A DNA stretch of 36,798 nt from Tateyamaria pelophila (GTDB taxonomy: Bacteria; Pseudomonadota; Alphaproteobacteria; Rhodobacterales; Rhodobacteraceae): positions 1 through 36,798 of the forward strand of contig NZ_JAIMIA010000047.1 in assembly GCF_019966495.1 (NCBI RefSeq), read 5' to 3'. The translations under genes and the position numbers were made by a program. The first letter of the stretch is position 1, and every line of letters begins with the position of its first letter. The notes beneath the pieces are model-generated. The model saw only the letters and a program-made list of their open reading frames with translations, was not told the DNA's origin and searched no databases. This document shows positions 15,133 through 31,038 of this stretch, one piece after another.

Positions 15133-16521
15133 TCAGTATATCGGGAACACGGCGGAAATATCCGTATTTTCCAGATTGTCCTCTCTGGACGTGACCGAAT
15201 TTTCATCCGTATCGACGTGTCGAGACAGGGTCGCCTTGCACGGCACACCGTTGACATAAACCTCTGCGATGGCGCGATCATCGCCCATCATTTGCAGGAT
15301 GAACAGTTCCTCGGCCAGACTCCCGGCGCGCTCCATGCGCAAGGCCATCGCATCCGTACTTTGCGAATTCAGGACGACAATGTCGGCCTCCGTTCCGGCA
15401 TCCAGCGTGCCGATTTTGTCCTCAAGCCCCAGAACACAGGCGTTGCCGCGCGTAACCCAATGAAACGCCTGCAACGGGTGCAGCGATTGTCCTTGCAACT
15501 GAAGCACCTTGTACCCTTCGTTCAGTGTTTGCAGCATCGAATAGCTTGTGCCCGCGCCAACATCCGTGGCGATCCCGTTGGTGATGCCTTTTGCCCGCAA
15601 ACCAGCGTTGTCAAACAGCCCGCTCCCCAAGAACAGGTTGGACGTCGGGCAAAAGACCGGGTGCGCGCCCGTTTCGACCAACGCATCGATCTCGCGCGGT
15701 TTGAGGTGAATGGAATGGCCAAGCAGCGCGTTTTCGCGCAACAGCCCATAGGACTGATAAACGTCGAGATAGTCACGCGCTTGCGGGTAGAGTTCGGCAG
15801 TAAAAGAAATCTCGTCATGGTTCTCCGACAGATGCGTCTGGATGTGACAGTCGGGATGCTCAGACGCGAGGGCCTGTGCCATCTCCATCTGTGCGGGAGA
15901 GGACGTGATCGCAAAGCGGGGTGTGATGACATAGCTGTTGCGCCCGGTCCCCTGCCACTGTTCGATCAGCGCCTTGGTGTCGTCATATCCAGACTGTGGC
16001 GTATCGCGCAGACCGTCCGGCGCATTCCGATCCATCAGGACCTTGCCCCCCAGCATCCGCATTCCCCGGCTCGAGGCTTCGGAAAAGAAAGCATCTGCCG
16101 AGGTTTTATGGACCGAGCAAAAGGCAACTGCAGATGTCGTGCCATGCGCGATCAACTGATCAAAAAACTTCGACGCCATCCGGGCGCTGTGATCCGGATC
16201 GGCATATCGGGTTTCTTCGGGAAAGGTGTAATTGTTCAGCCAATCCAGAAGTTGCGACCCCCAGGACGCGATCACCTGCACCTGTGGAAAGTGGATATGC
16301 GTGTCGATGAACCCGGCCATCATCAGATGTGGCCGGTGATCCGTAACCGGCGTCGATGGTGCGGCGCTGCGGAGCGCGTCAAATGTGCCGAGCCTCTGAA
16401 TGGTCCCGTCCTTGATCAGCACTGCGCCATCTTCGAGGTACGTATAGGCACTGGCGTCATCACCATCGCGCGGTTCGCGATGAAACGTCAGCACACGTCC
16501 ACGGAGCAATTTCTGGGTCAT
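15133..16521 (-). CDS. guaD: Guanine deaminase
   Basis: The product has 462 residues. It hydrolyses guanine to xanthine and ammonia, feeding xanthine dehydrogenase encoded upstream. Amidohydrolase metal motifs are present: GFIDTHIHFPQ near residue 79, THLSENHDEI, GHSIHLKPREIDAL, and the GuaD-typical CPTSNLFLGSGLF and ATDVGAGTSYSML, whose Asp completes the zinc site. An in-frame start further upstream at 16536 is less likely than the ATG at 16521, which has GGTGA about eight bases before it. It follows the purine permease after a strong hairpin at 16553-16572. Confidence 0.93.
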   Translation of the reverse strand: MTQKLLRGRVLTFHREPRDGDDASAYTYLEDGAVLIKDGTIQRLGTFDALRSAAPSTPVTDHRPHLMMAGFIDTHIHFPQVQVIASWGSQLLDWLNNYTFPEETRYADPDHSARMASKFFDQLIAHGTTSAVAFCSVHKTSADAFFSEASSRGMRMLGGKVLMDRNAPDGLRDTPQSGYDDTKALIEQWQGTGRNSYVITPRFAITSSPAQMEMAQALASEHPDCHIQTHLSENHDEISFTAELYPQARDYLDVYQSYGLLRENALLGHSIHLKPREIDALVETGAHPVFCPTSNLFLGSGLFDNAGLRAKGITNGIATDVGAGTSYSMLQTLNEGYKVLQLQGQSLHPLQAFHWVTRGNACVLGLEDKIGTLDAGTEADIVVLNSQSTDAMALRMERAGSLAEELFILQMMGDDRAIAEVYVNGVPCKATLSRHVDTDENSVTSREDNLENTDISAVFPIY

Positions 16522-16552
16522 TCGTTGTCTCACCACATGCGAGGGGATGTCA

Positions 16553-16572
16553 GGGCGGCAGACCTGCCGCCC
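16553..16572 (-). terminator. Hairpin between purine permease and guaD
   Basis: GGGCGGCAG (16553-16561) and CTGCCGCCC (16564-16572) form a perfect 9-base stem with a minimal loop in the 60-base gap. No T-tract follows on the minus strand, so it may stabilise or process the mRNA rather than fully stop transcription before guaD. Confidence 0.5.
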
Positions 16573-16581
16573 CCGTGTGCT

Positions 16582-18183
16582 TTACGCCTGTTGGGCAGGC
16601 GTATCATCATCGATCAAATCCGGTTCGTCCGGGACGATGATCCGATGCTCAAGATCCTCTTTCGGCGCAACGGCCGGATAAACATAGAGGAACGCGCCGA
16701 TGATCAGATACCCGATGGTGATACCGTCCAATTGCGGCAATTGCAGCGTATTTGCATGAATAATGCCAACCGAAGACATCACCGCCGCAGCCAGAGCAAA
16801 CCCACCAGCCATCTTGAACCGCCCGTCGATCACATCCGCCACGATGGCACCCCAGACCAGGCCAGTGATGATCGCACCCTGGCTCAGGGCGAGGTGGCCC
16901 TCGTAATATGCACCGTTCATCAGCAAGGCGGCTGTCAGATTTTCATCGCCCAGCGCAGGCAGTCCTTCGACGCCAGATGCGCTCAATGAATTCATCAGAG
17001 CCCCCCATTTGATCATCAGGAACGCGGAGATATGCGGTAAAATCGCAAAGGAGACGGCGGCCATGTGCAAAGGCTTCACGGCCCACGCCGTATTCGTGAT
17101 CAGGCTGACCGATACAAAAACCAGGACGGGCGCAGCGGCGGCAATCGGAATGAGACCCGCAAAGAACGACAGGAACCCAAAGAACGCGGCGGCGGCGATC
17201 ACCAGGGCAACGCCCACGATGTAACCCGCATGCGCGTCCATCCGTTTGTAGGCGGGATGGCCGATATATACGGTCGTCGGAAACGGCGAGCCAAAGAGCG
17301 CGCCGATCATCGTGCCTGCACCATCCGTGACCTGACACAAGCCCACCGGATAACTGTCGCCAGCGGCCTCGGCCGATTCCACGTTATTCATCGTTTCGAT
17401 GAAGTTGTAGATTTGAACCGGGATCAAGACGAGGAACAACTCGGGGTTCGCGAAAAGGTACTGCACCCCGGCGATCAAATCGCCAAAATATGGAACGGGT
17501 GGATAGAAACCGATGCCGCTGACGTCAAAGCTGGACTGGCCCAACACGATTGCGATGACTGTACCGGCACCGATCGCCACAAGGCCCGCTGGCAGGTTAC
17601 CGGGCAACCGGAACCGCCCGATCAATCCCCAAAGGATGAACAAAAGCGACGTGAAACCGATGATCGGATGCTCGAAGATCTGCGCCAACGGGACGGATCC
17701 GATAAACACCAATGCGATCCCGCACAACGTACCCAACATCCCGGCCCGTGGCGTAATCCGTTTGAGATACGGCCCGACGATGGCACCCAGCGCCGCCACG
17801 ATACCGCCGATGAAGCCCGCGCCAATGCCGACCTGCCAGGCCAGCAGCGGGTCTTGTGTGGCCCAATAGATCGGCCCGATCACGCCGAACAGGTAAACGA
17901 ACATCACAGGTGTCGAGATACCGTATGGCAAGGCCGTAACGTCCTTGCCCTGCTTGTTCGCAGCCCATTTGGCGAGGTAGGTATAGACGGCAACCCCTGC
18001 CAGGATGGCAATGGCGGCCCCCGGAACGATACGTCCGAACACGATCTCGGTCGGCATTTGAAATACAAACTGGCAAACCCCGGTCAGGATCAGCAAATTG
18101 ACAAGGTTGTCGGTAAACAGCGCCCAAAACGCGCTGAAATCGCTGCGTGTGAACAGCTTGTAGCTATAGGTTCTACCGTCCAT
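16582..18183 (-). CDS. Purine (xanthine/uracil-type, NCS2-like) permease
   Basis: The product has 533 residues and is a polytopic membrane protein with roughly twelve or more hydrophobic segments from residue 20 onward. Blocks such as LFTDNLVNLLILTGVCQFVF, GKDVTALPYGISTPVMFVYL and GAGTMIGALFGSPFPTTVYI resemble nucleobase transporters of the NCS2 superfamily; the last corresponds to the region with the conserved T-x-Y motif. Its place between xdhC and guaD supports uptake of guanine, xanthine or hypoxanthine. The start is the ATG at 18183 with GAGGAGA upstream, 43 bases after the xdhC stop. A longer open frame from 18297 would overlap xdhC and has no such site. Confidence 0.8.
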   Translation of the reverse strand: MDGRTYSYKLFTRSDFSAFWALFTDNLVNLLILTGVCQFVFQMPTEIVFGRIVPGAAIAILAGVAVYTYLAKWAANKQGKDVTALPYGISTPVMFVYLFGVIGPIYWATQDPLLAWQVGIGAGFIGGIVAALGAIVGPYLKRITPRAGMLGTLCGIALVFIGSVPLAQIFEHPIIGFTSLLFILWGLIGRFRLPGNLPAGLVAIGAGTVIAIVLGQSSFDVSGIGFYPPVPYFGDLIAGVQYLFANPELFLVLIPVQIYNFIETMNNVESAEAAGDSYPVGLCQVTDGAGTMIGALFGSPFPTTVYIGHPAYKRMDAHAGYIVGVALVIAAAAFFGFLSFFAGLIPIAAAAPVLVFVSVSLITNTAWAVKPLHMAAVSFAILPHISAFLMIKWGALMNSLSASGVEGLPALGDENLTAALLMNGAYYEGHLALSQGAIITGLVWGAIVADVIDGRFKMAGGFALAAAVMSSVGIIHANTLQLPQLDGITIGYLIIGAFLYVYPAVAPKEDLEHRIIVPDEPDLIDDDTPAQQA

Positions 18184-18226
18184 GACGGTCTCCTCTTCTG
18201 ATGTGACCGGCCTTCGACCTTTTGCG

Positions 18227-19108
18227 TCAGGCGGAAATTCCTTTCCGGTCATGTTGGCGGCCCGGCTTGGGCGCTTTGTTTGCCCGGTGAAGGGCATTTG
18301 CGGCAGTTTCAGAGGTCAATTCAGCCATCACTTCAGCCACCACGAAGGAGGCAATGACGCTGGGCCGCTTGTCACGGCTGCCGCTCGCCCCGATGGGACA
18401 ATTCAGATGTTCGATGGAGTGGTGATCGCAATTGGCACGCACCCAATTGCGGAACTTGATCCGCTTGGTCGCGGATCCGATCATCCCGACATAGGCCGCA
18501 TCACCGCGCTCCAACGCAGCCGACGCGAGCAGGAAGTCCAAACCATGATCGTGGGTCAAAACGATAAAGGCGCTGCCTGCCGGAGCATTTGCAATATCGA
18601 CTTCGGGCATTGCACTGAGCCGCAGTTCGACATCCGCATGGCACAGGGATAATTCCTCGGGTCGCGTATCGACAAGGACGCTGCGCACCGGCAGGTGCTG
18701 CAATTGGATGGCCAGCGCCCGTCCGACATGACCGGCCCCCAGAATATACACGTGGGGCAGTGCATCGTCCTGGTCATGCGCCCGGACTGTGGCCGCGCGC
18801 CGGTCAGACCCGCGCATCCGCGACAGGCCAATCTCGACCCGCCCGCCACAGCATTGTCCAATCTCCGGGCCCAGCGGAATATCCAGATCCCTGTTCAAGG
18901 CGCCATCCCGAAGCATCTCGCGTGCCGCTTCGATCGCCATGTGCTCCAGCTGACCACCGCCAATCGTGCCCAAGAGCGACGTCTCGGATACGAACATTTC
19001 CGTGCCCGCGTTGCGGGGCGACGACCCGCGCACGCGGGTCAGGGCGATGCGGATCACCGATGTGTGGGCGTCCAGAAATCGGACCAGATTGTCGGACATG
19101 GATGCCAT
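18227..19108 (-). CDS. xdhC: Xanthine dehydrogenase accessory protein XdhC
   Basis: The product has 293 residues. XdhC binds the molybdenum cofactor, protects its sulfurated form and inserts it into XdhB; it is not part of the mature enzyme. Recognisable blocks are RGSSPRNAGTEMFV, GTIGGGQLEH, the GQCCGG Cys pair, the Rossmann-like ILGAGHVGRALA, and YVGMIGSATKR followed by CPIGASGSRDKRP. It starts 3 bases after the xdhB stop, with its GGAGG site inside the end of xdhB, so it is tightly coupled to it. Confidence 0.93.
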   Translation of the reverse strand: MASMSDNLVRFLDAHTSVIRIALTRVRGSSPRNAGTEMFVSETSLLGTIGGGQLEHMAIEAAREMLRDGALNRDLDIPLGPEIGQCCGGRVEIGLSRMRGSDRRAATVRAHDQDDALPHVYILGAGHVGRALAIQLQHLPVRSVLVDTRPEELSLCHADVELRLSAMPEVDIANAPAGSAFIVLTHDHGLDFLLASAALERGDAAYVGMIGSATKRIKFRNWVRANCDHHSIEHLNCPIGASGSRDKRPSVIASFVVAEVMAELTSETAANALHRANKAPKPGRQHDRKGISA

Positions 19109-19111
19109 GAC

Positions 19112-21430
19112 CTACGCCTCCGCCTTCATCCGCGTGACAGCCATCAATACCCGTTCCGGTGTCGCCGGGGCGTCAAGGCGGGGGCAAATCCGATAATCGG
19201 CAACCGACGCCACCGCCATCGACAAGGCCTCGAACACCGAAATACCCAGCATGAACGGCGGTTCGCCCACCGCTTTGGAGCGTTTGATCGTCAATTCCCG
19301 GTTCTCGGACCAATCCGCCAATTTCACATTGAAGATGCGCGGCCTGTCGGAAGCGAGCGGGATCTTGTAGGTCGACGGTGCATGGGTCCGTAACTGCCCC
19401 GCATCGTCCCACCAAAGTTCTTCTGTGGTCAACCACCCCATACCCTGAATGAACGCGCCCTCGACCTGACCCTTGTCCAAGGCCGGGTTCAGCGACCGTC
19501 CCACATCGTGCAGGATATCCGTCCCCTCGACCCGGTACTCCCCCGTCAATGTATCAATCGTCACCTCGGAGCATGCGGCTCCGTATGCGAAATAATAGAA
19601 CGGACGCCCCTGCCCTTTGCTGCGGTCCCAATGGATCTTCGGTGTCTTGTAGAACCCCGCGGCCGAGAGTTGGACACGCGCCATGTAGGCCTCTTTGACA
19701 AAGGCGTTAAAGGTCATCACATGTTCGCCGACATGGACTTCATTGGGATGGAAGGTCACCGCCTGCGGTGTCACGGCCCATTTTTCAGCCGCGAACGCCA
19801 CCAGCCGTTCCTTGATCTGCTCAACGGCGTTCAGAGCCGCCATGCCATTCAGATCCGTCCCGCTGGAGGCCGCCGTTGCTGACGTGTTCGGCACCTTTTC
19901 AGTGGTGGTCTTGGTAATCTTGATCCGCTCGAAATCAACCTGAAACGCCTCGGCCACAATCTGCGCGATTTTGGTGTTCAGACCCTGACCCATCTCGGTG
20001 CCGCCATGGTTCAGATGGATGGAGCCGTCGTTATAGACGTGCACCAAGGCACCCGCCTGATTGTACCAGGTGGCCGTGAAGGAAATCCCGAATTTGACCG
20101 GGGTCAGCGCGATCCCCTTTTTGAGAACCGGAGACGCTGCATTGAACGCAATGATGTCCTGACGTCGTTTGCGGTATTCGGCCGTTTCTTCCAACTCTCC
20201 GACCAGACGCTCCAGTATGTTGTCATCAACTTGCTGGTGATACGGCGTCACATCACGGCCCGCGCCGCCATAAAAGTTGGCCTTGCGCACATCAAGCGGG
20301 TCTTGCCCAGTGGCAAAGGCAATCTCTTCGATCATCCGTTCGGCAACAATCACGCCTTGAGGGCCGCCAAAACCGCGAAATGCCGTGTTGGACACGGTGT
20401 TGGTTTTCATCGGACGGCTTGTCAGGCGAACATTGGGATAGAAATACGCATTGTCCGCATGAAACAAAGCCCTGTCCGTAACTGGCCCGGACAGGTCCGA
20501 CGAGAACCCGCAACGCGCGGCAAAGATACCGTCAACGGCTTCGATCCGCCCTGCGTCGTCAAAAGCCACATCGTAATCGACGACAAAATCATGGCGTTTG
20601 CCCGTCGCGGTCATGTCCTGATCACGATCCGGGCGAATTTTGACGGCCCGCTTCCACTTTTTTGCAGCAATCGCCGCAACCGCACAGAACAGGTTCATCT
20701 GGCTTTCCTTGCCACCAAACCCGCCGCCCATGCGCCGCACATTCACAACGACCGCATTGGACGGCACACCCAGAACGTGGGCCACCATATGCTGCGCTTC
20801 AGAGGGGTGCTGGGTCGAGCAATGCACAACAACTTCGTCATCTTCACCTGGAATCGCAAAGGCGATGTGTCCTTCGAGATACATGTGATCCTGTCCGCCA
20901 ATGGCCATCCGCCCTTGAATGCGGTTCTGCGCTGCCGCGAATGCCGGATCAATCTCTCCGCGTTCCAGTTTCAACGGAGCCGTCACATTGGGATAGCCAG
21001 CCTCTTGCGCGGCGATCGGATCAAGCGCGTGCGGCAGTACTTCGCAATCAACTTTGGCCAGTTCTGCAGCGCGGCGGGCGGCGTCTCGGGTTTCGGCGAT
21101 GACCGCAAACAACGGTTGGCCGTAAAACTGGATCGTCTCGGTCGGGAACACAGGTTCGTCGTTCAGGCCGGTGGGGCTGATGTCATTGACACCGGGAATA
21201 TCCTCGGCGGTCAGCACTCCGATGACGCCCGGCGCGGCCAGTACATCCGTCAAATCCAGACCGTTCAGGGTGGCATGCGCAACATTTGAAACCCCAAGGT
21301 AGGCGTGCAAGGTGCCTTCGGGTTGGGCGATGTCATCGGTGTAATCGGCCTGACCCGTCACATGTTTGATCGCACTGTCATGAATACGGTCGGTATGGGC
21401 GGAACCGGTGATGGAAACGTTGTCTTTCAT
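19112..21430 (-). CDS. xdhB: Xanthine dehydrogenase, molybdopterin-binding large subunit
   Basis: The product has 772 residues, as expected for bacterial XdhB. It binds Moco and oxidises hypoxanthine and xanthine to urate. Features include the N-terminal a/b hammerhead domain (HVTGQADYTDDI), RRMGGGFGGKESQ, TAFRGFGGPQG, EMGQGLNTKIAQIVAE, and the C-terminal VGEPPFMLG, whose Glu corresponds to the catalytic base. The ATG at 21430 has AGGAG eight bases upstream and begins MKDNVSITG; an in-frame ATG at 21496 overlaps xdhA by 50 bases and is unlikely. It lies 16 bases downstream of xdhA. Confidence 0.95.
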   Translation of the reverse strand: MKDNVSITGSAHTDRIHDSAIKHVTGQADYTDDIAQPEGTLHAYLGVSNVAHATLNGLDLTDVLAAPGVIGVLTAEDIPGVNDISPTGLNDEPVFPTETIQFYGQPLFAVIAETRDAARRAAELAKVDCEVLPHALDPIAAQEAGYPNVTAPLKLERGEIDPAFAAAQNRIQGRMAIGGQDHMYLEGHIAFAIPGEDDEVVVHCSTQHPSEAQHMVAHVLGVPSNAVVVNVRRMGGGFGGKESQMNLFCAVAAIAAKKWKRAVKIRPDRDQDMTATGKRHDFVVDYDVAFDDAGRIEAVDGIFAARCGFSSDLSGPVTDRALFHADNAYFYPNVRLTSRPMKTNTVSNTAFRGFGGPQGVIVAERMIEEIAFATGQDPLDVRKANFYGGAGRDVTPYHQQVDDNILERLVGELEETAEYRKRRQDIIAFNAASPVLKKGIALTPVKFGISFTATWYNQAGALVHVYNDGSIHLNHGGTEMGQGLNTKIAQIVAEAFQVDFERIKITKTTTEKVPNTSATAASSGTDLNGMAALNAVEQIKERLVAFAAEKWAVTPQAVTFHPNEVHVGEHVMTFNAFVKEAYMARVQLSAAGFYKTPKIHWDRSKGQGRPFYYFAYGAACSEVTIDTLTGEYRVEGTDILHDVGRSLNPALDKGQVEGAFIQGMGWLTTEELWWDDAGQLRTHAPSTYKIPLASDRPRIFNVKLADWSENRELTIKRSKAVGEPPFMLGISVFEALSMAVASVADYRICPRLDAPATPERVLMAVTRMKAEA

Positions 21431-21446
21431 CGTATCATCTCCTGTT

Positions 21447-22910
21447 TCAGGCCGAAGCCAGTTGAATGGGGGCCGTGGTTTCAGCGTCGTGTTCAAGATA
21501 GAAACGGCGCAGCAGGTTCTGGGCGGACAGCATCCGATACTCGGATGAGGCGCGCCAATCGCTCAGCGGTTTGAAATCCGTCGGCAAGGCGTCGGCGGCG
21601 TTCTCAAAGCTTGCCTCTGACCAGGAATGGCCAATGAGCGCGCGTTCGGCCGCCGACGCCCGTTTCGGGGTCGCAGCCATCCCACCGAAGGCGATGCGGC
21701 ATCCGGTGATCGTGCCGTCTGTGACGGTCACATTGATCCCGACTGCGACGGACGAAATATCTTCATCCCGTCGTTTGGAAATCTTGTATACCGCGTTCAG
21801 GTCGTTGGCACCGGGCAGAGGCACACGGACGCTTTCGACAAACTCGCCGGCTACCCGATCCTGCTTGCCATAATCGATAAAGAAATCTTCGAGCAGAAGA
21901 ACGCGGCGATCCGTACCGCGTCGCAAAGTGATCTCGGCGCCTAGCGCGATCAGCACCGGCGGCGTGTCTCCGATGGGCGATCCGTTGGCGATGTTGCCAC
22001 CCACGGTACCCATATTGCGCACCTGCCACCCTGCGATCCGGTCCCAATAGGACGAAAGATGCGGCAGATGTTCGGACAGGCTTTGCTGGCAGTCGGTATA
22101 ACTTGCCCCGGCACCCATCAGCAGCGCACCGTCTTTTGCTTCGACCGTTTTCAGATCATTGAGATGGCCAGTAAAAATCGCCGGGCCGATATTGCGCAGG
22201 AACTTGGTGACCCATAGGCCGACATCCGTCGCTCCGGCAACAATTGTCGCGCCGGGATATTCCAGCAGGCAATCTGCCAGATCGTCCACATCAGTTGGCA
22301 AGATGCTCAGGTTGTCTGGCGGCCCTGAAACGACCCGTTGTCCGCTCCGCAAGGCTTGCAGGCGCCCGGTAATCGCGGACCTTTCCGTATTGAGATAATC
22401 TGCGGCGGGCGATCCATACCGACTGACCGCGACGGCGGCCTTGATGATTGGGTCATATCCGGTGCAGCGACACAGGTTGCCCTGCAAGGCGCTTTCCACC
22501 TGCGCTTCGGTTGGTTCCGGCACTTCCATCCAGAGCGCATAAAGCGACATGACGAAACCGGGCGTGCAGAAGCCGCATTGGCTGCCGTGATGGTCCACCA
22601 TTGCCTGTTGAACCGGGTGCAATCGCCCTTCCGGCCCAGAGAGATGTTCGATCGTCACCACGTGGCAGCCATCCACGGATGCCAGAAACCGTATGCATGC
22701 GTTGACGGGCGTGTAGACCAAACCGGCGTCCGACAAATGGCCGACCAGCACGGTACAGGCACCGCAATCGCCTTCTGCGCAACCTTCCTTCGTGCCCGTC
22801 AATCGACGTTCAATGCGTAGAAAATCGAGAAGGGTTTGATCCGCGCCGACAGCCCCAAGTGAGGTGTCTTTGCCGTTCAGCAAAAATCGAATGTCTGTGC
22901 GGTGTGTCAT
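21447..22910 (-). CDS. xdhA: Xanthine dehydrogenase, small subunit (2Fe-2S and FAD)
   Basis: The product has 487 residues. The N-terminal plant-ferredoxin-type cluster uses Cys44, Cys49, Cys52 and Cys72 (GCAEGDCGAC, then ACIRF). The second cluster uses Cys112, Cys115, Cys147 and Cys149 (QCGFCTPG, LCRCTGY). The FAD domain follows with IVAGATDVGLW and MGTVGGNIANGSPIGDTPP. It passes electrons from the Moco site in XdhB to NAD+. It is the first gene of the xdhABC-permease-guaD-allE run, with GAGGGA ahead of the ATG, and is divergent from a LysR gene. Confidence 0.95.
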   Translation of the reverse strand: MTHRTDIRFLLNGKDTSLGAVGADQTLLDFLRIERRLTGTKEGCAEGDCGACTVLVGHLSDAGLVYTPVNACIRFLASVDGCHVVTIEHLSGPEGRLHPVQQAMVDHHGSQCGFCTPGFVMSLYALWMEVPEPTEAQVESALQGNLCRCTGYDPIIKAAVAVSRYGSPAADYLNTERSAITGRLQALRSGQRVVSGPPDNLSILPTDVDDLADCLLEYPGATIVAGATDVGLWVTKFLRNIGPAIFTGHLNDLKTVEAKDGALLMGAGASYTDCQQSLSEHLPHLSSYWDRIAGWQVRNMGTVGGNIANGSPIGDTPPVLIALGAEITLRRGTDRRVLLLEDFFIDYGKQDRVAGEFVESVRVPLPGANDLNAVYKISKRRDEDISSVAVGINVTVTDGTITGCRIAFGGMAATPKRASAAERALIGHSWSEASFENAADALPTDFKPLSDWRASSEYRMLSAQNLLRRFYLEHDAETTAPIQLASA

Positions 22911-22990
22911 GGTTTGTTCCCTCTTGTCCCGGATGGAAGGACGATCAGCCTAGTTTGATCTTATGGGAAGTCATTGCATTAACAAATGGC

Positions 22991-23028
22991 CATTATCGGC
23001 AAATACTTTCAACAGTACGTTGATAATG
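22991..23028. promoter_or_regulatory. Long dyad in the xdhA/LysR gap, candidate operator
   Basis: CATTATC (22991-22997) and GATAATG (23022-23028) are perfect reverse complements 24 bases apart, in the 163-base gap between the divergent xdhA and LysR genes. Such long dyads fit a tetrameric LysR regulator contacting two half-sites. The words TTATCG and TTGATAATG recur upstream of allE. Confidence 0.45.
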
Positions 23029-23073
23029 AACCGTACAGATGCAAAGTTAATCCGACCCGACCAAAAGGTGAGC

Positions 23074-23976
23074 ATGTCCTATATCGAGAGTCTGCGCGTA
23101 TTTGTCCGCGTCTTGGAACTTGGCAGCATCACGTCTGGCGGGCGCGACCTCAGACTGACGCCCGCGGTCGCCAGCAAACGCATCAAAGAGCTTGAAAAGA
23201 AGCTGGGCGTGCGTTTGTTCAACAGGACGACCCGGTCGATCACACCGACGGAAGTTGGTCTGGTCTTCTACGACGAGGCAAGGGGCATCTTGCTCGCGCT
23301 GGACACAGCCGAGGCCAAGGTCGCCAATTTTTCAGCCAAACCGCGCGGCGCGATCCGTGTCACGGCCCCCCTTGGTGTCGGGCGCAGGATTGTCGCGCCC
23401 ATGGTCCCCGATTTTGTCGACGCTTATCCGGAAACACAGGTGCGCATGCGCCTGTCCGACCGCAAGGTGGATATCCTCGCAGATGGTCTGGACGTGGCCT
23501 TTTTCATCGGCGAGCCGAGCGATTCCAATATGAAACTGCGCAAAATTGCGGATTGCGCGCGCGTGCTCTGTGCCGCGCCTGCGTATTTATCCGAATTTGG
23601 CGTGCCTGAAGTGACCGAAGACCTTCTGGATTCGACTCATAACTGCCTGCTCCTGCGCTATCCGCGGTCGCCGGAATATTTCTGGACGTTGCAAACGGAC
23701 ATGGGTCCGCGGAAACTTGAAGTGAGCGGGAAATACGACGCCGACGACGGGGATGTCTTGACAGATTGGGCGTTGGCGGGGCGCGGTATCGTCAACAAAC
23801 CGCGTTTCGACGTTGCAGAACATCTGACCAGCGGGCGCCTCGTCGAAGTCTTGCCGAACGCGCCACCCCAGCCGACGATCTTTGGATGTTTGTATCCACA
23901 CAAGAGATTGCAGGACCCGAAGGTGCGCCTTTTCGTCGACCATATCGCTTCTCGCAGCAAGGCGATATTTGCCTGA
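23074..23976 (+). CDS. LysR-family regulator, likely of xanthine/purine catabolism
   Basis: The product has 300 residues. It has the N-terminal winged helix (MSYIESLRVFVRVLELGSIT, then LTPAVASKRIKELEKKLGVR and LFNRTTRSITPTEVG) and a ligand-binding domain starting near residue 90 (GAIRVTAPLGVGRRIVAPMV). It is of the AaeR/CrgA-like class by N-terminus. It is divergent from xdhA, so control of xdhABC and possibly guaD and allE with a purine co-inducer is inferred. An open frame reaches back to 22963, but the ATG at 23074 has AAAAGGTGA upstream and matches the family start. Confidence 0.88.
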   Translation: MSYIESLRVFVRVLELGSITSGGRDLRLTPAVASKRIKELEKKLGVRLFNRTTRSITPTEVGLVFYDEARGILLALDTAEAKVANFSAKPRGAIRVTAPLGVGRRIVAPMVPDFVDAYPETQVRMRLSDRKVDILADGLDVAFFIGEPSDSNMKLRKIADCARVLCAAPAYLSEFGVPEVTEDLLDSTHNCLLLRYPRSPEYFWTLQTDMGPRKLEVSGKYDADDGDVLTDWALAGRGIVNKPRFDVAEHLTSGRLVEVLPNAPPQPTIFGCLYPHKRLQDPKVRLFVDHIASRSKAIFA

Positions 23977-23997: not shown

Positions 23998-25011
23998 CTA
24001 ACAGGTTGAGCGTATGACCAGATCCGAAGAACAACACTGGTTCTCCTGCACCATTTCAGGCGAAATGATGGACTGCACCAACGCCGCGCCGCCGAGCGTT
24101 CCGATCATCTTGGCGGGTATACGGATCGTCGTGATGGCCGGTTCGACCTCTTTGGAGCCTTTGAAATCCCCGACCCCGGTGACGGCAATGTCTTCGGGCA
24201 CCTTCAACCCCAAGGATTGCGCCGCATAGATCGCGCCGAGGGCAAGAATGTCATTGCCGCAAACGATCACATCCGGCCTGGCTTGGGATGTGAGATACTC
24301 AATCACGACCTTCTTGGCGGAAGAAATGCTGTAGAACGTTTCCAGTCGGTCCACCGGATCAGGGGCAGCACCCCTTTGCTGCAGCATTTGCATGACGCCA
24401 TCCGCCCGAGAGGTCGCACGGTCATTCCCGTCCAACGGCGGAAACAGCGTCGCAATCTTGCTATGACCCCGATCCAACACATGCCGCGCGATTTTACAGC
24501 CCGCCTCATGGTTGTCCGCCCCAACGCAAATCAACCGCGAAGTTGGCGCATAATTCCAAAGCGAAACGGTCGGGATTCTCTGGCTTTCGATCAGGTTGTA
24601 CACCTCTTCGGAGTGGTGCAGGCCAACAACGGCCACACCATCAACCCGATGCTCCAGAAACTTGCGCAATACGTCATATTCCTGTGCGTCGTCATAGTTG
24701 TGCGTACCAAGCAGGATCGTGAACCCGTGTGAGCCGACTTCGTCAGCAAAGGCCTGTATCATTTCCGCAAAGATCGTGTTGTCGATCGTCGGAACGACAA
24801 GGCCAATCGTCCCGCTGCGAATGCCATGAATGGTTTGCGCCGCACGATTGCGGATATAGCCGAGTTTTTTCACTGCCCTGTCGATCTTGCGACGAGTCGC
24901 CAGTTTCACCAGTTCAGGCCGATTGAAAAACCGCGATACGGTCGCCGGAGACACTTTTGCCGCGAGTGCGACAGCTACAATATCGGCTTTTTTGTTATTT
25001 TTATCAGACAT
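23998..25011 (-). CDS. LacI-family repressor, likely of the tct/sau operon
   Basis: The product has 337 residues. The helix-turn-helix and hinge are at the N-terminus (DIVAVALAAKVSPATVSRFF, then TRRKIDRAVKKLGYIRNRAA). A periplasmic-binding-protein-like sensor follows, with the family blocks GLVVPTIDNTIFAEMIQAFA, DGVAVVG, GADNHEAG and GNDILALGAIYAAQSLGLKV. LacI proteins repress until a ligand binds. It is divergent from tctA with a gap of about 100 bases holding LacI-like operators, so it probably governs this transport and catabolic operon. In context the ligand may be the transported acid or its CoA derivative. It converges tightly with the upstream LysR gene (21-base gap). Confidence 0.93.
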   Translation of the reverse strand: MSDKNNKKADIVAVALAAKVSPATVSRFFNRPELVKLATRRKIDRAVKKLGYIRNRAAQTIHGIRSGTIGLVVPTIDNTIFAEMIQAFADEVGSHGFTILLGTHNYDDAQEYDVLRKFLEHRVDGVAVVGLHHSEEVYNLIESQRIPTVSLWNYAPTSRLICVGADNHEAGCKIARHVLDRGHSKIATLFPPLDGNDRATSRADGVMQMLQQRGAAPDPVDRLETFYSISSAKKVVIEYLTSQARPDVIVCGNDILALGAIYAAQSLGLKVPEDIAVTGVGDFKGSKEVEPAITTIRIPAKMIGTLGGAALVQSIISPEMVQENQCCSSDLVIRSTC

Positions 25012-25036
25012 CTATCTCGCAAAAATCAGAATTTTA

Positions 25037-25062
25037 TGAAAACATTTGCAAAACTATTTTCA
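25037..25062. promoter_or_regulatory. Two overlapping LacI-type operators before tctA
   Basis: TGAAAACATTTGCA (25037-25050) fits the LacI-family pattern TGNAAA-N2-TTTNCA. TGCAAAACTATTTTCA (25047-25062) is a second, slightly wider dyad sharing the TGCA half. They lie midway between the divergent lacI-type gene and tctA, so one bound repressor could control both promoters. Confidence 0.6.
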
Positions 25063-25110
25063 TGATTTAGCCTGAGACGTCAATTGCAGTTCTGGGGGAG
25101 GATCTGGCGT

Positions 25111-26622
25111 TTGGAATTCGTAGGCTATCTTGGTGACGTCTTTTTGCCGTTCAATTTCCTGCTGCTGTTGCTGGGCACAATTGGCGGGCTGATCCTCGGT
25201 GCGACGCCTGGCCTTTCACCGACGATGGCTGTGGCCCTGCTTATTCCGTTCACGTTTCAACTGGCGCCAGCGCAGGGTCTTATCCTGCTGGGTGCTGCGT
25301 ATACATCGACCGTCGCGGGCGGTGCCGTCAGTGCGATCTTGCTCAAGATCCCCGGCGCACCTGCGAATATCGCAACCACGCTCGATGGCCACACGATGGC
25401 GCAAAAGGGCCAAGGCGCAAAGGCGTTGCAACTCTCCTTTCTGGCCTCGGCGGTCGGGGGGATATTCGGCGTTCTGCTGCTGATTTTCCTGACACCAGTG
25501 CTTGCGAAATGGGCCTTGGCATTTGGCCCGTCACACTTGTTCTGGTTGGCCATCCTTGGGGTTACAGTGATCGGCACGCTGGATTCCAGCTCGGTGGTCA
25601 AAGGGTTGTTGTCCGGATGTATCGGCCTGTGGCTCGCCACTATCGGCTTTGATGACATCATGGGGGCGCAACGGTTCATCTTTCATCCGGCATTGGGCGG
25701 CGGGATCAACGTGATCCCCGCCTTGATCGGACTTTTTGCCATCCCGCAAGTCATCACGATGTTCGCAAAGGGCCGGGCCTCTACAGCCGCCGAGGTTATC
25801 GTGGTCCAGAAAAGCCCGATCAAGGAAGCCATTGCCGAGGTATTCAAGCGCAAGCGTGCATTGGCCATCGGCACAGGCGTGGGGAGTATCATTGGCCTCA
25901 TCCCCGGCGTGGGCGGGCAGATCGCGGGCCTTGTCGCTTACGATCAATCCAAGAAGTTCAGCCCCGAAGCCGAGAAGTTCGGCACCGGCCATAGCGAGGG
26001 CGTGATTGCAGCCGAAGCCGCAAACAACGCGATGGTCGGCCCGTCACTGGTGCCCCTGCTGACGCTGTCGATCCCCGGATCGCCAACGGCCGCCGTTTTG
26101 CTGGGTGGCCTCCTGATCCATGGAATTTTCCCGGGGTCTGACCTCTTTGACAACCACCCGGATGTGGCGTGGACCTTTATCAACTCAATGCTGATCGGTC
26201 AGGTTTTGATGTGCATCTTTGGGCTTTATGTGGCGGGGCTTGCTGCCAGCGTTGCGCGCGTTCCCCACTCGGTCATGGCGGCTGTGGTTCTGGGGTTGGC
26301 GGTTTTCGGCAGCTATTCAGTGCAGAATTCGATGGGCGACGTCTATGTCATGGCGACGCTGGGCGTGGGGATGTACTTCCTTGAACGGTTCGGATTTTCC
26401 GCCGCACCTCTGGTGCTTGGCCTGATCCTTGGCCCGATTGCCGAGGCGAACTTCATCCAAGGCTCGATGATCGCAAACGCAACCTCCAGCATCACAAGCT
26501 ACTTCTTTACCGGCCCGCTGAACCTGACGCTGATCGCGATCGTGGTCGCCTCTGTCGGCTATTCCTTCTGGATGGAGCTTCGCAGCCGCCGCTACACCTC
26601 GAAAGAGGAGATCATGGGATGA
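25111..26622 (+). CDS. tctA: Tripartite tricarboxylate transporter large permease, TctA family
   Basis: The product has 503 residues, the usual TctA length, with about eleven or twelve membrane segments. Family hallmarks are GTIGGLILGATPGLSPTMAV near the N-terminus and the repeated SIIGLIPGVGGQIAGLVAYD in the second half, both glycine/proline-rich half-loops of the internal repeat. The start is assigned to a TTG at 25111 with GGGGGAGGA about eight bases upstream, giving MEFVGYLGDVF; a TTG at 25084 lacks a site. TctA, TctB and TctC form a secondary uptake system for organic anions. The tctB start overlaps its stop (ATGA). Confidence 0.92.
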   Translation: MEFVGYLGDVFLPFNFLLLLLGTIGGLILGATPGLSPTMAVALLIPFTFQLAPAQGLILLGAAYTSTVAGGAVSAILLKIPGAPANIATTLDGHTMAQKGQGAKALQLSFLASAVGGIFGVLLLIFLTPVLAKWALAFGPSHLFWLAILGVTVIGTLDSSSVVKGLLSGCIGLWLATIGFDDIMGAQRFIFHPALGGGINVIPALIGLFAIPQVITMFAKGRASTAAEVIVVQKSPIKEAIAEVFKRKRALAIGTGVGSIIGLIPGVGGQIAGLVAYDQSKKFSPEAEKFGTGHSEGVIAAEAANNAMVGPSLVPLLTLSIPGSPTAAVLLGGLLIHGIFPGSDLFDNHPDVAWTFINSMLIGQVLMCIFGLYVAGLAASVARVPHSVMAAVVLGLAVFGSYSVQNSMGDVYVMATLGVGMYFLERFGFSAAPLVLGLILGPIAEANFIQGSMIANATSSITSYFFTGPLNLTLIAIVVASVGYSFWMELRSRRYTSKEEIMG

Positions 26623-27083
26623 ACGATCTGCCCCGCAACCAGCATATTATCGCGTCAGGCGTCGTCGCCGCCGTTGGCATCTGGGTCACCTATGTCAGCT
26701 ATACGCAAGAGCCTGCCGCCGCATTCCTGTTTCCACGCATGATCTCGACCGTCTTTGTCGTCCTTGCGCTCTGGACGTTCGGCAAAGCGGTGATGGGCCG
26801 CAGCAAGGTCGGCGCGGGCCTGTCAGCCGCAGCCATGAAGAACATCGCGCCGGGGCTGATCGTCGCCCTGATCTATATCTTCTGGGCGGCCCGGGGGCTT
26901 GGCTTCTACACGGCCTCAACGATCACATTCTTCATACTGCTCAGTCTTTACGATCCCGCACCGCATGCTGAACTGCGCTCGTGGATCAAACGCATTATCA
27001 TCACCGCTGGATTTCTGGCGGTGATGTACGCCCTCTTCGCGGGCCTTTTGAACGTCTACACCCCGCGAGAGATATTTTTCTGA
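26619..27083 (+). CDS. tctB: Tripartite tricarboxylate transporter small membrane subunit, TctB family
   Basis: The product has 154 residues with four hydrophobic segments (about 10-27, 39-55, 75-92 and 95-111, plus a C-terminal stretch at 123-145). The N-terminal block SGVVAAVGIWVTYVS and the FLFPRMISTVFVVLALW motif are typical of TctB. It partners TctA in the membrane. It overlaps tctA by 4 bases and precedes tctC by 40 bases. Confidence 0.88.
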   Translation: MNDLPRNQHIIASGVVAAVGIWVTYVSYTQEPAAAFLFPRMISTVFVVLALWTFGKAVMGRSKVGAGLSAAAMKNIAPGLIVALIYIFWAARGLGFYTASTITFFILLSLYDPAPHAELRSWIKRIIITAGFLAVMYALFAGLLNVYTPREIFF

Positions 27084-27123
27084 ATCGCAAGAGCGGCAGA
27101 TCAAACCCAAGGGAGGAACTACA

Positions 27124-28092
27124 ATGAAAAAATGGATCGCAGGGGCCGCCACGGCCCTCATGACACTGACCGGAGCAGCCTTCGCGGAAGGGCATGGCGA
27201 TTACCCGGATCGTCCCATCATGCTGATGGTCAGCTATGGCGCGGGCGGCGCCACGGATTTTCAGGCGCGCATCGTGACCATGACCGCCGGAAACGAAGAC
27301 GCGTTGGGTGTGCCCATCGCCATCATCAACAAACCGGGAGCGGGTGGCCGCGTCGGCTGGAACTGGCTTGCGTCCCAAGCCGAAGCGGACGGGTATACGC
27401 TGGGGGCCTACAACATTCCGCACTTCATCGCGCAATCGATCGAGGGCGGCGTGAGCTATACTGCCGACAGCTTTGAGCCCATTGCGAACTGGGGGGCGGA
27501 CCCCGCCGTGTTTGTCGTAGCCGCTGACAGCCCTTTCAACTCGATGCAGGATGTCGTGGATTATGCCAAGGAAAATCCCGGCGGGCTGACATTTTCCGGC
27601 GCTGGTCTGTTTGTCGGGCATCACATCGCTGCGTTACAGTTGGAAAAAGCGGCGGGTGTCAAACTGGCCTATATCCCCAGCAATGCGGGTGGTGCAGGCG
27701 CGATGAAATCAGTCATCGCTGGCGAAGTTCTGGGCGGGGTGAACAACCTGTCGGACGCCTTCCGGGCGCGCGAAGCGGGCAACGTCAAGGTCCTCGGGGT
27801 CTTTGATCTGGAGCGCAACAGCTTCATGGAAGACGTACCGACGATGGCCGAACAGGGCTTTGACATCGACAACGCGTCCGTCAACTTCCGAGGGGTGATG
27901 GTGCCCAAGGGAACACCGCAGCCCGTGATCGACCACTTGGCAGCCGTTGTGCCGACGATGTTCGAAAACAGCAGCGTTCAGGGCAAAATGTCAGCCGGTG
28001 GCAGCCCGATGCACGTCATGACCCGCGAAGAGGTTCAGGAAATGTGGACGGCCCGTCAAGCGACGCTTCAAGAGCTGCTTGCTGGCCTGTGA
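27124..28092 (+). CDS. tctC: Tripartite tricarboxylate transporter binding protein, TctC/Bug family
   Basis: The product has 322 residues. A Sec signal peptide (MKKWIAGAATALMTLTGAAFA) is followed by a Bug-type periplasmic binding protein: DYPDRPIMLMVSYGAGGATD near the mature N-terminus, INKPGAGGRVGWNW, and an AGGAGAMKSVIAGEV loop. In Bug proteins such loops clasp the carboxylate of the ligand. Given the sauS/sauT-like genes downstream, sulfoacetate is the suggested ligand. GGGAGGA precedes the ATG. A hairpin follows the gene at 28101-28126, compatible with higher expression of the binding protein. Confidence 0.9.
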   Translation: MKKWIAGAATALMTLTGAAFAEGHGDYPDRPIMLMVSYGAGGATDFQARIVTMTAGNEDALGVPIAIINKPGAGGRVGWNWLASQAEADGYTLGAYNIPHFIAQSIEGGVSYTADSFEPIANWGADPAVFVVAADSPFNSMQDVVDYAKENPGGLTFSGAGLFVGHHIAALQLEKAAGVKLAYIPSNAGGAGAMKSVIAGEVLGGVNNLSDAFRAREAGNVKVLGVFDLERNSFMEDVPTMAEQGFDIDNASVNFRGVMVPKGTPQPVIDHLAAVVPTMFENSSVQGKMSAGGSPMHVMTREEVQEMWTARQATLQELLAGL

Positions 28093-28100
28093 AGTCTGAC

Positions 28101-28126
28101 GAAGGGGCGCGACGTTGCGCCCCTTC
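28101..28126 (+). terminator. Perfect 10-base hairpin between tctC and sauS
   Basis: GAAGGGGCGC (28101-28110), a GACGTT loop and GCGCCCCTTC (28117-28126) form a perfect stem. No T-tract follows, so it is more likely an mRNA-stabilising or attenuating element within the operon than a full terminator. Confidence 0.55.
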
Positions 28127-28147
28127 ACCAACCAAAGGATGCACGAA

Positions 28148-29551
28148 ATGACCACAACAGACCCGATCCAGCATGTAGAGGATATGGTTGCCCGTGCGCG
28201 CGCCGCCCAACTGCGGTTCGAGGCAAATGGCAGTCAGGCACTGTACGATCGGGCAGCGGCGGCAGCCGCCTGGGCCATCATGGAACCGTCCCGCAACGAA
28301 GCATTGGCCAGGCTTGCGGTCGAAACGACCGGGCTGGGCAATGTTGCCGACAAGATCATCAAGAACCATCGCAAGACCCTGGGTCTGATGCGCGATATCC
28401 AGCAGGCCAAGACATACGGCGTGATCAGTGATGACCCGGAAACCGGCCTCACGAAAATTGCGCGGCCCATCGGCGTGATCGGTGCGGTTGTTCCGTCCAC
28501 GAACCCCGGCGCCACGCCGGCCAACAACATCATCAACGCGCTGAAATGCGGCAACGCCATTGCCGTATCGCCGTCCCCGAAAGGTGTACCGACCTGTGAG
28601 GCTTTGCTGGGATACATTCACGCCGAGTTCGACAAATCCGGGATTGACCGCGATCTGGTGCAGATGATCCCCGGTCGCGGCTCCAAGGAAACAACGCAAC
28701 GGCTGCTCGAAATCTCGGATATGATCGTCGTGACCGGCAGCCAGAACAACGTGCGCCGCGCCTATACGTCGGGCACGCCGGCGCTGGCCGTCGGGGCCGG
28801 CAACGTGACCGTTATCGTCGATGAAACCGCCGATCTGACAGCGGCGGCCCAGAAAATCGCAGCTTCCAAGACATTCGACAACGCAACGTCCTGTTCGTCA
28901 GAGAATGCGATTGTGGTGATCGACGCGGTTTATGACGCCTTTGTCGCCGAGATGGCCGAGGCCGGGGGCGCGCTGATCACGGATGACACCCGCATCATCG
29001 AAAAGCTATGGGTGAAGGGCCACCTCAACCCCCGCGCCATCGCGCAAGATGCAGACAAGTTGATTGCGGCGCTTGGCCTCACAGGAGAAGTGCCGGAAGA
29101 CACGCAATTCATCGCAGTGGAGACGACCGGCATCGGTCCGGATCATCCGCTGTCCGGTGAAAAACTAAGTCGCGTTTTGACAGTATACCGCGCCACTGAT
29201 TTCGACGATGCGGTCGACATCACACGCAAGGTGCAGTTGTTTCAGGGGGCGGGCCATTCCGTCGGCATTCACTCCACAGACACAACCCGCCCGATGACGC
29301 TGGCACAGGCCATCCCGACCAGCCGCGTCATCGTCAATCAGGCGCACACATTTGCCACGGGCGGTGCGTTTACCAATGGCATGCCCTTCTCGCTCTCCAT
29401 GGGATGTGGGTCCTGGGGCGGCAACTCGATCGACGACAATCTGCATTGGAGACACTTCATGCAAACAACCAAGATCGTGCGCGAAATCCCAGCGCGCGAA
29501 CCCAAGGTCGAGGACATCTTCAAGGACTACTGGGCGGAGACCGGCGGATGA
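28148..29551 (+). CDS. sauS: CoA-acylating aldehyde dehydrogenase, probable sulfoacetaldehyde dehydrogenase SauS
   Basis: The product has 467 residues. It belongs to the acylating aldehyde dehydrogenases (AdhE/EutE/PduP-like) rather than the hydrolytic kind: IARPIGVIGAVVPSTNPGAT (residues 105-123), SPSPKG near 141, and the catalytic Cys249 in ATSCSSENA, with AVGAGNV where hydrolytic enzymes carry their general-base Glu. SauS interconverts sulfoacetyl-CoA and sulfoacetaldehyde with NAD(P)+. The assignment comes from the pairing with a CoA ligase and an anion transporter, as in the sau genes of Cupriavidus necator, and from overall resemblance. Start: the ATG at 28148 with AAAGGA eight bases upstream; a TTG at 28115 lies in the hairpin. 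Its stop overlaps the ligase start. Confidence 0.68.
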   Translation: MTTTDPIQHVEDMVARARAAQLRFEANGSQALYDRAAAAAAWAIMEPSRNEALARLAVETTGLGNVADKIIKNHRKTLGLMRDIQQAKTYGVISDDPETGLTKIARPIGVIGAVVPSTNPGATPANNIINALKCGNAIAVSPSPKGVPTCEALLGYIHAEFDKSGIDRDLVQMIPGRGSKETTQRLLEISDMIVVTGSQNNVRRAYTSGTPALAVGAGNVTVIVDETADLTAAAQKIAASKTFDNATSCSSENAIVVIDAVYDAFVAEMAEAGGALITDDTRIIEKLWVKGHLNPRAIAQDADKLIAALGLTGEVPEDTQFIAVETTGIGPDHPLSGEKLSRVLTVYRATDFDDAVDITRKVQLFQGAGHSVGIHSTDTTRPMTLAQAIPTSRVIVNQAHTFATGGAFTNGMPFSLSMGCGSWGGNSIDDNLHWRHFMQTTKIVREIPAREPKVEDIFKDYWAETGG

Positions 29552-31038
29552 TCCTTGATCTGCAAAATCCACCGAGAGGCACAGTTCGAGACTGGATTGA
29601 CCATCGCGCGGCCCAAGGTGGCGTCGCCATGGTCTTCCCCGAAACCGACGAGATGCTGGAGTGGGGCACATTGCGATCCGAGGCCATCGCAATCGCGAGG
29701 ACACTCACTGCCGCAGGCGTGGCCAAAAGCGAAAGCGTCGCGATCGTCCATCCCAACGGTCCGGAGGGGATTACCGCGCTTTACGGGGTCCTGTATGGCG
29801 GCTTTCGCGCAACGATGATCAACCTCGCGGCTGGACGGGACGCCATCAACTATGCGCTGGGTCACAGCGGCGCGCGATTTGCCTTTGTGCACGAGAGCGC
29901 CGCCGATCTGTACCACTCTGCTGCACCGGATGGCTTGACGCTCGTATCCGGAACCGCCGAAACTGACATCGCCCTGCATGCTTTGGCAGCCGAAGATCAT
30001 GCACTTTTGATGTACACATCAGGCACGACGGGAAAGCCGAAGGGTGTCGTTCATACCCATGCCAGCCTTTTGGCGGGCGGATGGACCACGACAATCGCCC
30101 ACGCGCTGACACCCGACGATCGCGGATTTTGCGTCTTGCCGCTGTATCATATCAACGGGCTTTGCGTCTCCTTGATGGGATCGCTCGTCTCAGGCGGATC
30201 GCTTGCGGTTGTATCCCGTTTTTCGGCCAGCCAATTCTGGCATCAGGCTGAGCGCGCGCACGTCACGTGGTTTTCAGTTGTCCCAACGATCATCAGTCAC
30301 CTGCTGCACAGTGCGGAAAACCCGGATCCGGATTGTATCGAACGGTTGCGCTTTGGCCGCTCCGCGTCGTCCGCGCTGGCCGTCGAGACGCAGCGCACCT
30401 TCGAGAACCGCTTTGGCGTTCCCATCATCGAAACCATGGGGCTGACCGAAACCGCGGCCCAGATCCTGTCGAACCCCTTGCCACCCGGTCTGCGCAAAAT
30501 CGGCTCGCCGGGGCTTGGCTATGGTAATCAGGTCTGCATCCTCGCCCCGGACCAAAGCGAATGCGCGCGCAACACAGAAGGTGAGATCGCGGTCAAAGGC
30601 CCGAATGTGATGTTGGAGTATCTGAACAACCCAGAAGCCACCGCCGCGACGTTTACCGGCGATTGGCTGCGCACCGGTGATTTGGGCAAGATGGACGATG
30701 ACGGCTACGTCTATGTCACGGGCCGGATCAAGGAATTGATCATCAAGGGCGGCGAAAACATCGCCCCACGCGAAATCGACGAAGCCCTCTATTCCCATCC
30801 CGATATCATAGAGGCCGCCGCCTTCGCCCGCCCCTGCGCCACCTATGGCGAGCGGGTCGAAGCCGCCGTTCGTGTGGCAGAGGGCTCAACGCTTCAAGAA
30901 AGCGATTTGATCGAGGCCTGCCGAGAACGACTGGGCGCGTTCAAATCTCCGGATGCGATTTTCTTTCTGGACGAGTTGCCCAAAGGCCCGTCGGGGAAAA
31001 TTCAGCGCCTCAAACTGGCCGAAGCTCTCAAGGGCTAG
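29548..31038 (+). CDS. sauT: AMP-forming acyl-CoA ligase, probable sulfoacetate-CoA ligase SauT
   Basis: The product has 496 residues, a complete ANL-superfamily enzyme. Motifs in order: the P-loop YTSGTTGKPKG (156-166), ETMGLTETAAQ near residue 295, the ATP-ribose Asp in DWLRTGDLG, the hinge VTGRIKELIIKGGENIAPRE, and the C-terminal catalytic Lys484 in GPSGKIQRLKL. It activates a carboxylate with ATP and CoA. Coupling (ATGA) to an acylating aldehyde dehydrogenase implies acid to acyl-CoA to aldehyde. With sulfoacetate as substrate this yields sulfoacetaldehyde, the substrate of Xsc, which is not in the window. Another short acid cannot be excluded. It converges on alkB across 35 bases. Confidence 0.65.
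   Translation: MILDLQNPPRGTVRDWIDHRAAQGGVAMVFPETDEMLEWGTLRSEAIAIARTLTAAGVAKSESVAIVHPNGPEGITALYGVLYGGFRATMINLAAGRDAINYALGHSGARFAFVHESAADLYHSAAPDGLTLVSGTAETDIALHALAAEDHALLMYTSGTTGKPKGVVHTHASLLAGGWTTTIAHALTPDDRGFCVLPLYHINGLCVSLMGSLVSGGSLAVVSRFSASQFWHQAERAHVTWFSVVPTIISHLLHSAENPDPDCIERLRFGRSASSALAVETQRTFENRFGVPIIETMGLTETAAQILSNPLPPGLRKIGSPGLGYGNQVCILAPDQSECARNTEGEIAVKGPNVMLEYLNNPEATAATFTGDWLRTGDLGKMDDDGYVYVTGRIKELIIKGGENIAPREIDEALYSHPDIIEAAAFARPCATYGERVEAAVRVAEGSTLQESDLIEACRERLGAFKSPDAIFFLDELPKGPSGKIQRLKLAEALKG

Follow-up and report, generated by a model that had tools for sequence, protein, structure and literature searches.

The window analyzed here, a 36,798-nucleotide stretch of Tateyamaria pelophila DNA (contig NZ_JAIMIA010000047.1), contains a candidate operon for sulfoacetate utilization. 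Five open reading frames (ORFs), all on the + strand, occupy positions 25111–31038, with stops at 26622, 27083, 28092, 29551, and 31038. The first three encode the subunits of a tripartite tricarboxylate transporter (TTT), namely the large permease TctA (25111–26622, with a TTG start at 25111; PF01970 (TctA), 448.1 bits), the small permease TctB (26619–27083; PF07331 (TctB), 46.7 bits), and the periplasmic binding protein TctC (27124–28092; PF03401 (TctC), 123.5 bits), which is the proposed sulfoacetate receptor. They are followed by sauS (28148–29551; Pfam Aldedh, 97.9 bits), predicted to encode a coenzyme A (CoA)-acylating sulfoacetaldehyde dehydrogenase, and by sauT (29548–31038; PF00501 (AMP-binding), 221.4 bits, and PF13193 (AMP-binding_C)), predicted to encode an AMP-forming sulfoacetate–CoA ligase. 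The likely start of sauS is the ATG at 28148, and another ATG at 28139 is in frame too. A LacI-family regulator (lacI; 23998–25011, − strand; Pfam LacI and Peripla_BP) is encoded divergently from the operon, and the lacI–tctA gap contains a 28-bp operator-like element, ATGAAAACATTTGCAAAACTATTTTCAT (25036–25063, + strand), which we propose as the LacI binding site.

A previous sequence-only reading of this DNA had described five co-oriented genes that join a tripartite uptake system to an AMP-forming ligase and an acylating dehydrogenase, with TctABC occupying the place of a major facilitator superfamily (MFS) carrier. The Pfam matches agreed with this description, and all three TTT subunits were detected in the operon. 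The ATGA overlaps that it had counted as several are real but occur at only two of the four junctions (tctA/tctB at 26619 and sauS/sauT at 29548), with short gaps at the other two.

The degradation of taurine and of sulfoquinovose is described as yielding sulfoacetate (PMC12625764; PMC12890257). Judging from the sequence comparisons below, the operon very probably imports sulfoacetate and converts it to sulfoacetaldehyde, which would feed central metabolism. We infer the substrate, the direction, the effector, the repression, and the role of a dimethyl sulfoxide (DMSO)-reductase-family complex as follows. TctC would bind sulfoacetate in the periplasm and TctAB would carry it inward; SauT would convert sulfoacetate, ATP, and CoA to sulfoacetyl-CoA, AMP, and pyrophosphate, and SauS, using NAD(P)H, would reduce sulfoacetyl-CoA to sulfoacetaldehyde. 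Xsc and Pta, whose genes lie on a different contig, would then yield sulfite, acetyl phosphate, and acetyl-CoA, and the DMSO-reductase-family complex encoded beside xsc–pta would probably oxidize the sulfite. LacI would repress the operon at the 28-bp element. What the sequences themselves show is which genes and families are present, how the enzymes are related, that the neighborhood and the element are conserved, and that the genome has xsc–pta.

Enzyme pair and downstream route

The dehydrogenase, for which comparison with SauS had been suggested earlier, passed NF047625, the NCBI equivalog model for acylating sulfoacetaldehyde dehydrogenase (673.7 bits; cut-off, 600), and the 24 further NCBIfam families among the best 25 of 33 matches all scored under their own cut-offs. 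The genome profile search found sauS to be the sole gene of its kind (next match, 39.5 bits).

The assignment of the ligase as SauT was supported by a tree of 41 rows, in which all 23 SauS-adjacent ligases, including that of the window, fell on one side of a single branch (support, 100/99). These ligases span Rhodobacterales, other Alphaproteobacteria, gammaproteobacterial metagenome-assembled genomes (MAGs), and Burkholderiaceae, SauS–SauT–MFS sets included. The other 18 rows, comprising 14 paralogues from the window's genome and four sau-locus ligases that are not SauS-adjacent (L053, L113, and two from L164), fell outside. For this tree, the close Rhodobacterales rows were thinned to one in five, and seven rows (six long-branch paralogues and one near-duplicate) were taken out beforehand. 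The window SauT showed 40% identity to the SauT of Caballeronia; plasmid loci of Caballeronia and Paraburkholderia served as stand-ins for Cupriavidus necator, no Cupriavidus being present among the at least 80 loci of the genome-contig scan.

The sequence-only reading had expected the downstream steps elsewhere in the genome, which comprises 280 contigs with completeness given as 100. An xsc gene was found on contig C208 (896.6 bits; cut-off, 676.4), in the order MocR-like regulator, xsc, pta, molybdopterin subunit, iron-sulfur subunit, and DmsC-like subunit; we take the three-subunit complex to be a SoeABC-type sulfite dehydrogenase. The presence of xsc, pta, and this sulfite-dehydrogenase-like complex removes the main worry of that reading. 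Across the 292 genomes of the order, xsc was found in 48 of 51 SauS-positive genomes versus 149 of 241 SauS-negative genomes (Fisher p = 1.9e-6), although this p-value overstates independence because the genomes are related. Taken together, the SauS model, the SauT clade, and the links to xsc give strong sequence support to sulfoacetate as the substrate and to SauS and SauT as the enzymes, as had been proposed.

Besides the relatedness of the genomes, several results weigh against this reading. No NCBIfam family exceeded its cut-off for the ligase among the best 25 of 105 matches, and the best solved relative of the ligase by sequence is an oxalate–CoA ligase. The SauS model also scored 759, 752, and 637 bits for proteins of L047, L048, and L084, in which the SauS-like gene shows 48–51% identity and no SauT or xsc lies within the fetched stretch; a pass of the model is therefore no proof of substrate by itself, and the model may take in dehydrogenases with different substrates. 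The xsc gene of the window's genome sits outside the sau operon, and xsc is widespread in the order regardless of SauS (197 of 292 genomes). Moreover, three SauS-positive genomes (G176, G240, and G033) gave no xsc match in the profile search, and the four neighboring genes checked in them showed no sign of an alternative sulfoacetaldehyde route; the missing xsc reflects either an assembly gap or another fate of sulfoacetaldehyde.

These three genomes carry the complete LacI–TctABC–SauST operon (L049, L052, and L061) despite lacking an xsc match. In L047 (6506–15101), the SauS-passing protein has as neighbors an ADP-forming CoA ligase and genes of the beta-oxidation type. Other genomes of the order (L085–L092; e.g., L089:8524–11621) encode a second SauS-like dehydrogenase with 34–38% identity to the window SauS, below the cut-off, adjoining a thiamine diphosphate (ThDP) enzyme with 26–28% identity to Xsc. 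By sequence, the two appear to form a parallel pair of acyl-CoA reductase and ThDP enzyme.

An operon serving another short acid, for example oxalate or malonate, in which the ligase would form the acyl-CoA and the dehydrogenase the semialdehyde, would suit both the oxalate–CoA ligases that are nearest to SauT among solved ligases and the carboxylates that TTT binding proteins of known ligand are described as mostly taking (PMC8556258). We nevertheless consider it unlikely, because xsc lies in one locus with the same enzymes in L055, L191, and L196 and with sauS and the same transporter type in L165, because the Burkholderiaceae SauS–SauT–MFS sets fall within the SauT clade, and because the SauS model was passed. 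Oxalate itself, which was raised by the PDB matches of the ligase, was set aside owing to the links to xsc.

Conservation of the locus and its regulator

In the order, 53 places scored above the SauS cut-off, distributed over 51 of 292 genomes; among 398 genomes sampled across the phylum, 6 had such a match. Forty of the 53 places were fetched as neighborhoods, and 32 of these carry all six of LacI, TctA, TctB, TctC, SauS, and SauT, a recurrence indicating that the gene combination is not due to chance. L067 has five of the six, with sauT missing where the fetched stretch ends. LacI, SauS, SauT, an MFS carrier, and Xsc are encoded together in L055, LacI, SauS, and SauT with a different TTT in L056, and SauS and SauT with no LacI in L058 and L082.

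Arrangements that join sau genes to xsc also emerged in other loci. A plasmid of Paracoccus sp. TOH (L196) carries LacI, SauS, SauT, an MFS gene, and xsc together. A Methyloligella MAG (L165) has the order LacI–TctABC–SauS–SauCD–xsc–acetate kinase, in which TctA, TctB, and TctC show 69, 44, and 60% identity to those of the window and are of the window type, and a gammaproteobacterial MAG (L191) has TctABC–SauS–SauT–xsc, again with window-type TctABC, behind a GntR gene. Two distant genomes thus combine window-type TctABC, sauS, and xsc in one cluster. Azospirillum (L199) encodes another TctCBA (TctA, 38%) with SauS, SauCD, a Soe-type complex, and xsc. In a plasmid collection, 24 records had a TctA match; four were at 80–90% identity, all with a SauS match nearby and three annotated with both enzymes, and the next TctA was at 42.7%. 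The 84-kb plasmid pDOK1-4-1 of Tateyamaria omphalii (L195) carries the whole LacI–TctABC–SauST cluster near repAB and a phosphate acetyltransferase/acetate kinase pair.

A LacI homologue was found in the SauS locus in 35 of the 40 fetched order loci. The 28-bp element was the sole match in the whole genome at ≤3 mismatches (reversed-pattern control, 0), and its 26-base core was found in none of 100 window shuffles. All 35 order loci with LacI carry the element within ≤2 mismatches, including L055 and L056 with their other transporters, whereas the best match in each of the five order loci without LacI had 8–10 mismatches. The 66 loci longer than 10 kb from the named-genome scan showed 8–13 mismatches to the element; variant forms were seen in L109, from another family of the same class, and in L165, and the MFS-type L196 also carries the element. 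The 28-bp element goes with LacI, independent of transporter type.

These data support a LacI-type regulator of the operon, as had been read from the sequence, and we propose that it acts as a repressor released by sulfoacetate or sulfoacetyl-CoA; we infer the effector, the sign, and repression itself. As the element has a single match in the genome, xsc has no upstream copy of it and is probably under control separate from that of the sau operon. The sigma-70 scan of the lacI–tctA gap found no + strand promoter and one weak − strand match at 25083–25056, which could serve lacI; sigma-70 sites in the region numbered 3 versus 1.7 in shuffles. By eye, a weak promoter may be read from TTGCAA (25046–25051) and TAGCCT (25068–25073), 16 bp apart. 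The dedicated LacI gene with its operator-like element offers a ready test system for sulfoacetate sensing.

Transporter lineages and ligand

The AlphaFold2 model of TctC (25 rows; mean predicted local distance difference test score, 89.8) showed a Bug fold, and the best 17 Foldseek matches were chains of TTT binding proteins, with a TM-score to BugD of 0.84 by query length and 0.90 by target length. The titles of these 17 matches name no sulfonate ligand, and the ligand is not evident from the predicted model. All 66 sau-linked TctC rows, from four groups (a few being one gene fetched twice), have an Arg in the motif [NQR][FY]R; this Arg was rejected as a sulfonate-specific residue, since it also occurs in 16 of 35 background rows, which include some miscalled ORFs and two rows (L240 and L251) of the sau type themselves, and in the solved structures 4x9t and 25hk.

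A 2018 review (PMC5812351) lists SlcHFG of Roseovarius nubinhibens as a sulfolactate TTT. Like the window TctABC, SlcHFG is a TTT assigned to a sulfonate, but its substrate is C3, unlike that proposed here, the likeness being one of description. The sequence-only reading had regarded a C2 sulfonate as a new ligand class for such proteins, a claim that falls in view of this sulfolactate TTT. The same precedent would allow TctABC to carry another sulfonate, sulfolactate or isethionate, as a mere neighbor of sauST. This we judge very unlikely, given that tctABC is co-oriented and tightly packed with sauST, that the same TctABC type goes with sauS and sauT or with sauS and sauCD, and that all four plasmid records with TctA at 80–90% identity hold a SauS match close by.

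Uptake rather than export of sulfoacetate fits both enzymes and transporter: AMP-forming ligase chemistry favors activation, the window ligase belongs to the AMP-forming family, and the transporter is of the binding-protein-dependent uptake type. The reverse reading, in which the enzymes would make sulfoacetate from sulfoacetaldehyde for excretion, is scarcely credible; SqwD, likened here by description, is a CoA-acylating sulfoacetaldehyde dehydrogenase working that way with SqwKL in a sulfoglycolysis variant (PMC12890257), but that variant uses an ADP-forming ligase.

In a TctA tree of 42 rows, the sau-linked permeases formed four groups, each with support of 100/100: group W (window type; 11 rows), group A (Azospirillum type, with L056; 5 rows), group M (9 rows, all with SauCD), and group V (with L082; 7 rows). 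The approximately unbiased test rejected a tree in which the four groups were held together (p = 0.0055), and p-values for other constraints were 0.0003 (W+A), 0.0027 (W+A+M), and 0.0063 (W+V). The groups were defined after a quick tree, 11 of the 40 W rows were retained, and partial, duplicate, and very long rows were excluded, including the sau-linked L155 and L176. Between the groups stand no more than ten further permeases, of which six come from the window's genome and none has a known substrate, and the tree program issued a warning that long branches meet, including one beside W. Recruitment of TTT uptake to sau clusters on more than one occasion is, from this tree, likely but not proved. 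On balance, we favor the view that TTTs were recruited repeatedly from different lineages while sauS and sauT stayed constant, and that the LacI and 28-bp operator of the order were kept despite replacement by an MFS carrier or another TTT. Such transporter swaps on a fixed enzyme pair provide a natural comparison of how TTT binding proteins might recognize a small sulfonate.

In the window's own genus, L082 carries SauST with a different TTT lineage and a gene of the TauE/SafE sulfite-exporter family; its stretch contains no LacI homologue and no 28-bp element. Transporter and regulator are swapped inside one genus.

Relation to described systems and flanking genes

The sauRSTU cluster of Cupriavidus necator H16 was reportedly described by Weinitschke in 2010, and the sauS–sauCD/SauXYZ system of Bilophila wadsworthia by Liu in 2023. 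The C. necator cluster, as described, shares SauS and SauT with the window operon; its transporter SauU is an MFS protein, whereas the window has TctABC and belongs to the TTT hybrid type rather than the C. necator type. The Burkholderiaceae loci L193 and L194 show the order SauS–SauT–MFS, and the regulator adjoining sauS in Caballeronia is IclR, not LacI; SauR of C. necator is described as responding to sulfonatoacetate (PMC7057948). The Bilophila system resembles the window operon in combining SauS with a TTT (PMC12625764; PMC12890257), but, by description, it has the ADP-forming ligase SauCD and turns sulfoacetaldehyde into isethionate (PMC12890257).

The closest described counterpart is found in sponge symbionts, in which sauST clusters with a TTT replacing SauU are called the hybrid type, with SauXYZ of Bilophila cited, and sauST is reported in 4 of 99 other bins (PMC12625764; mSystems 2025). 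These clusters, like the window operon, hold SauS, SauT, and a TTT in the place of SauU, so the novelty that the earlier reading had claimed for a TTT-type sau operon does not stand. Compared by description, the main text of that paper makes no mention of LacI, a regulator, or an operator, unlike the window operon. With SauS in 51 of 292 genomes and the full TTT form in 32 of 40 loci, the TTT form extends beyond sponge symbionts. We regard the operon as a new and well-supported case of the TTT hybrid type, which recurs in the order and is already known in outline. The LacI link, the operator, and repeated TTT recruitment were not found in print in the literature searched, supplements being outside its scope, and the transporter-independent LacI operator and repeated TTT recruitment go modestly beyond the print found.

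None of the flanking genes looks tied to the operon. On the upstream side, positions 15133–22910 encode guanine deaminase and the xanthine dehydrogenase XdhABC of purine catabolism, with a divergent LysR gene (22963–23976) just upstream of lacI; neither Pfam (at 1e-8) nor NCBIfam (at 1e-40) gave a match for an ORF at 16582–18297 (571 aa, − strand). Downstream of sauT, an AlkB-like gene on the opposite strand, with a score under the model cut-off, is followed by ORFs that are presumably dnaK and dnaJ.

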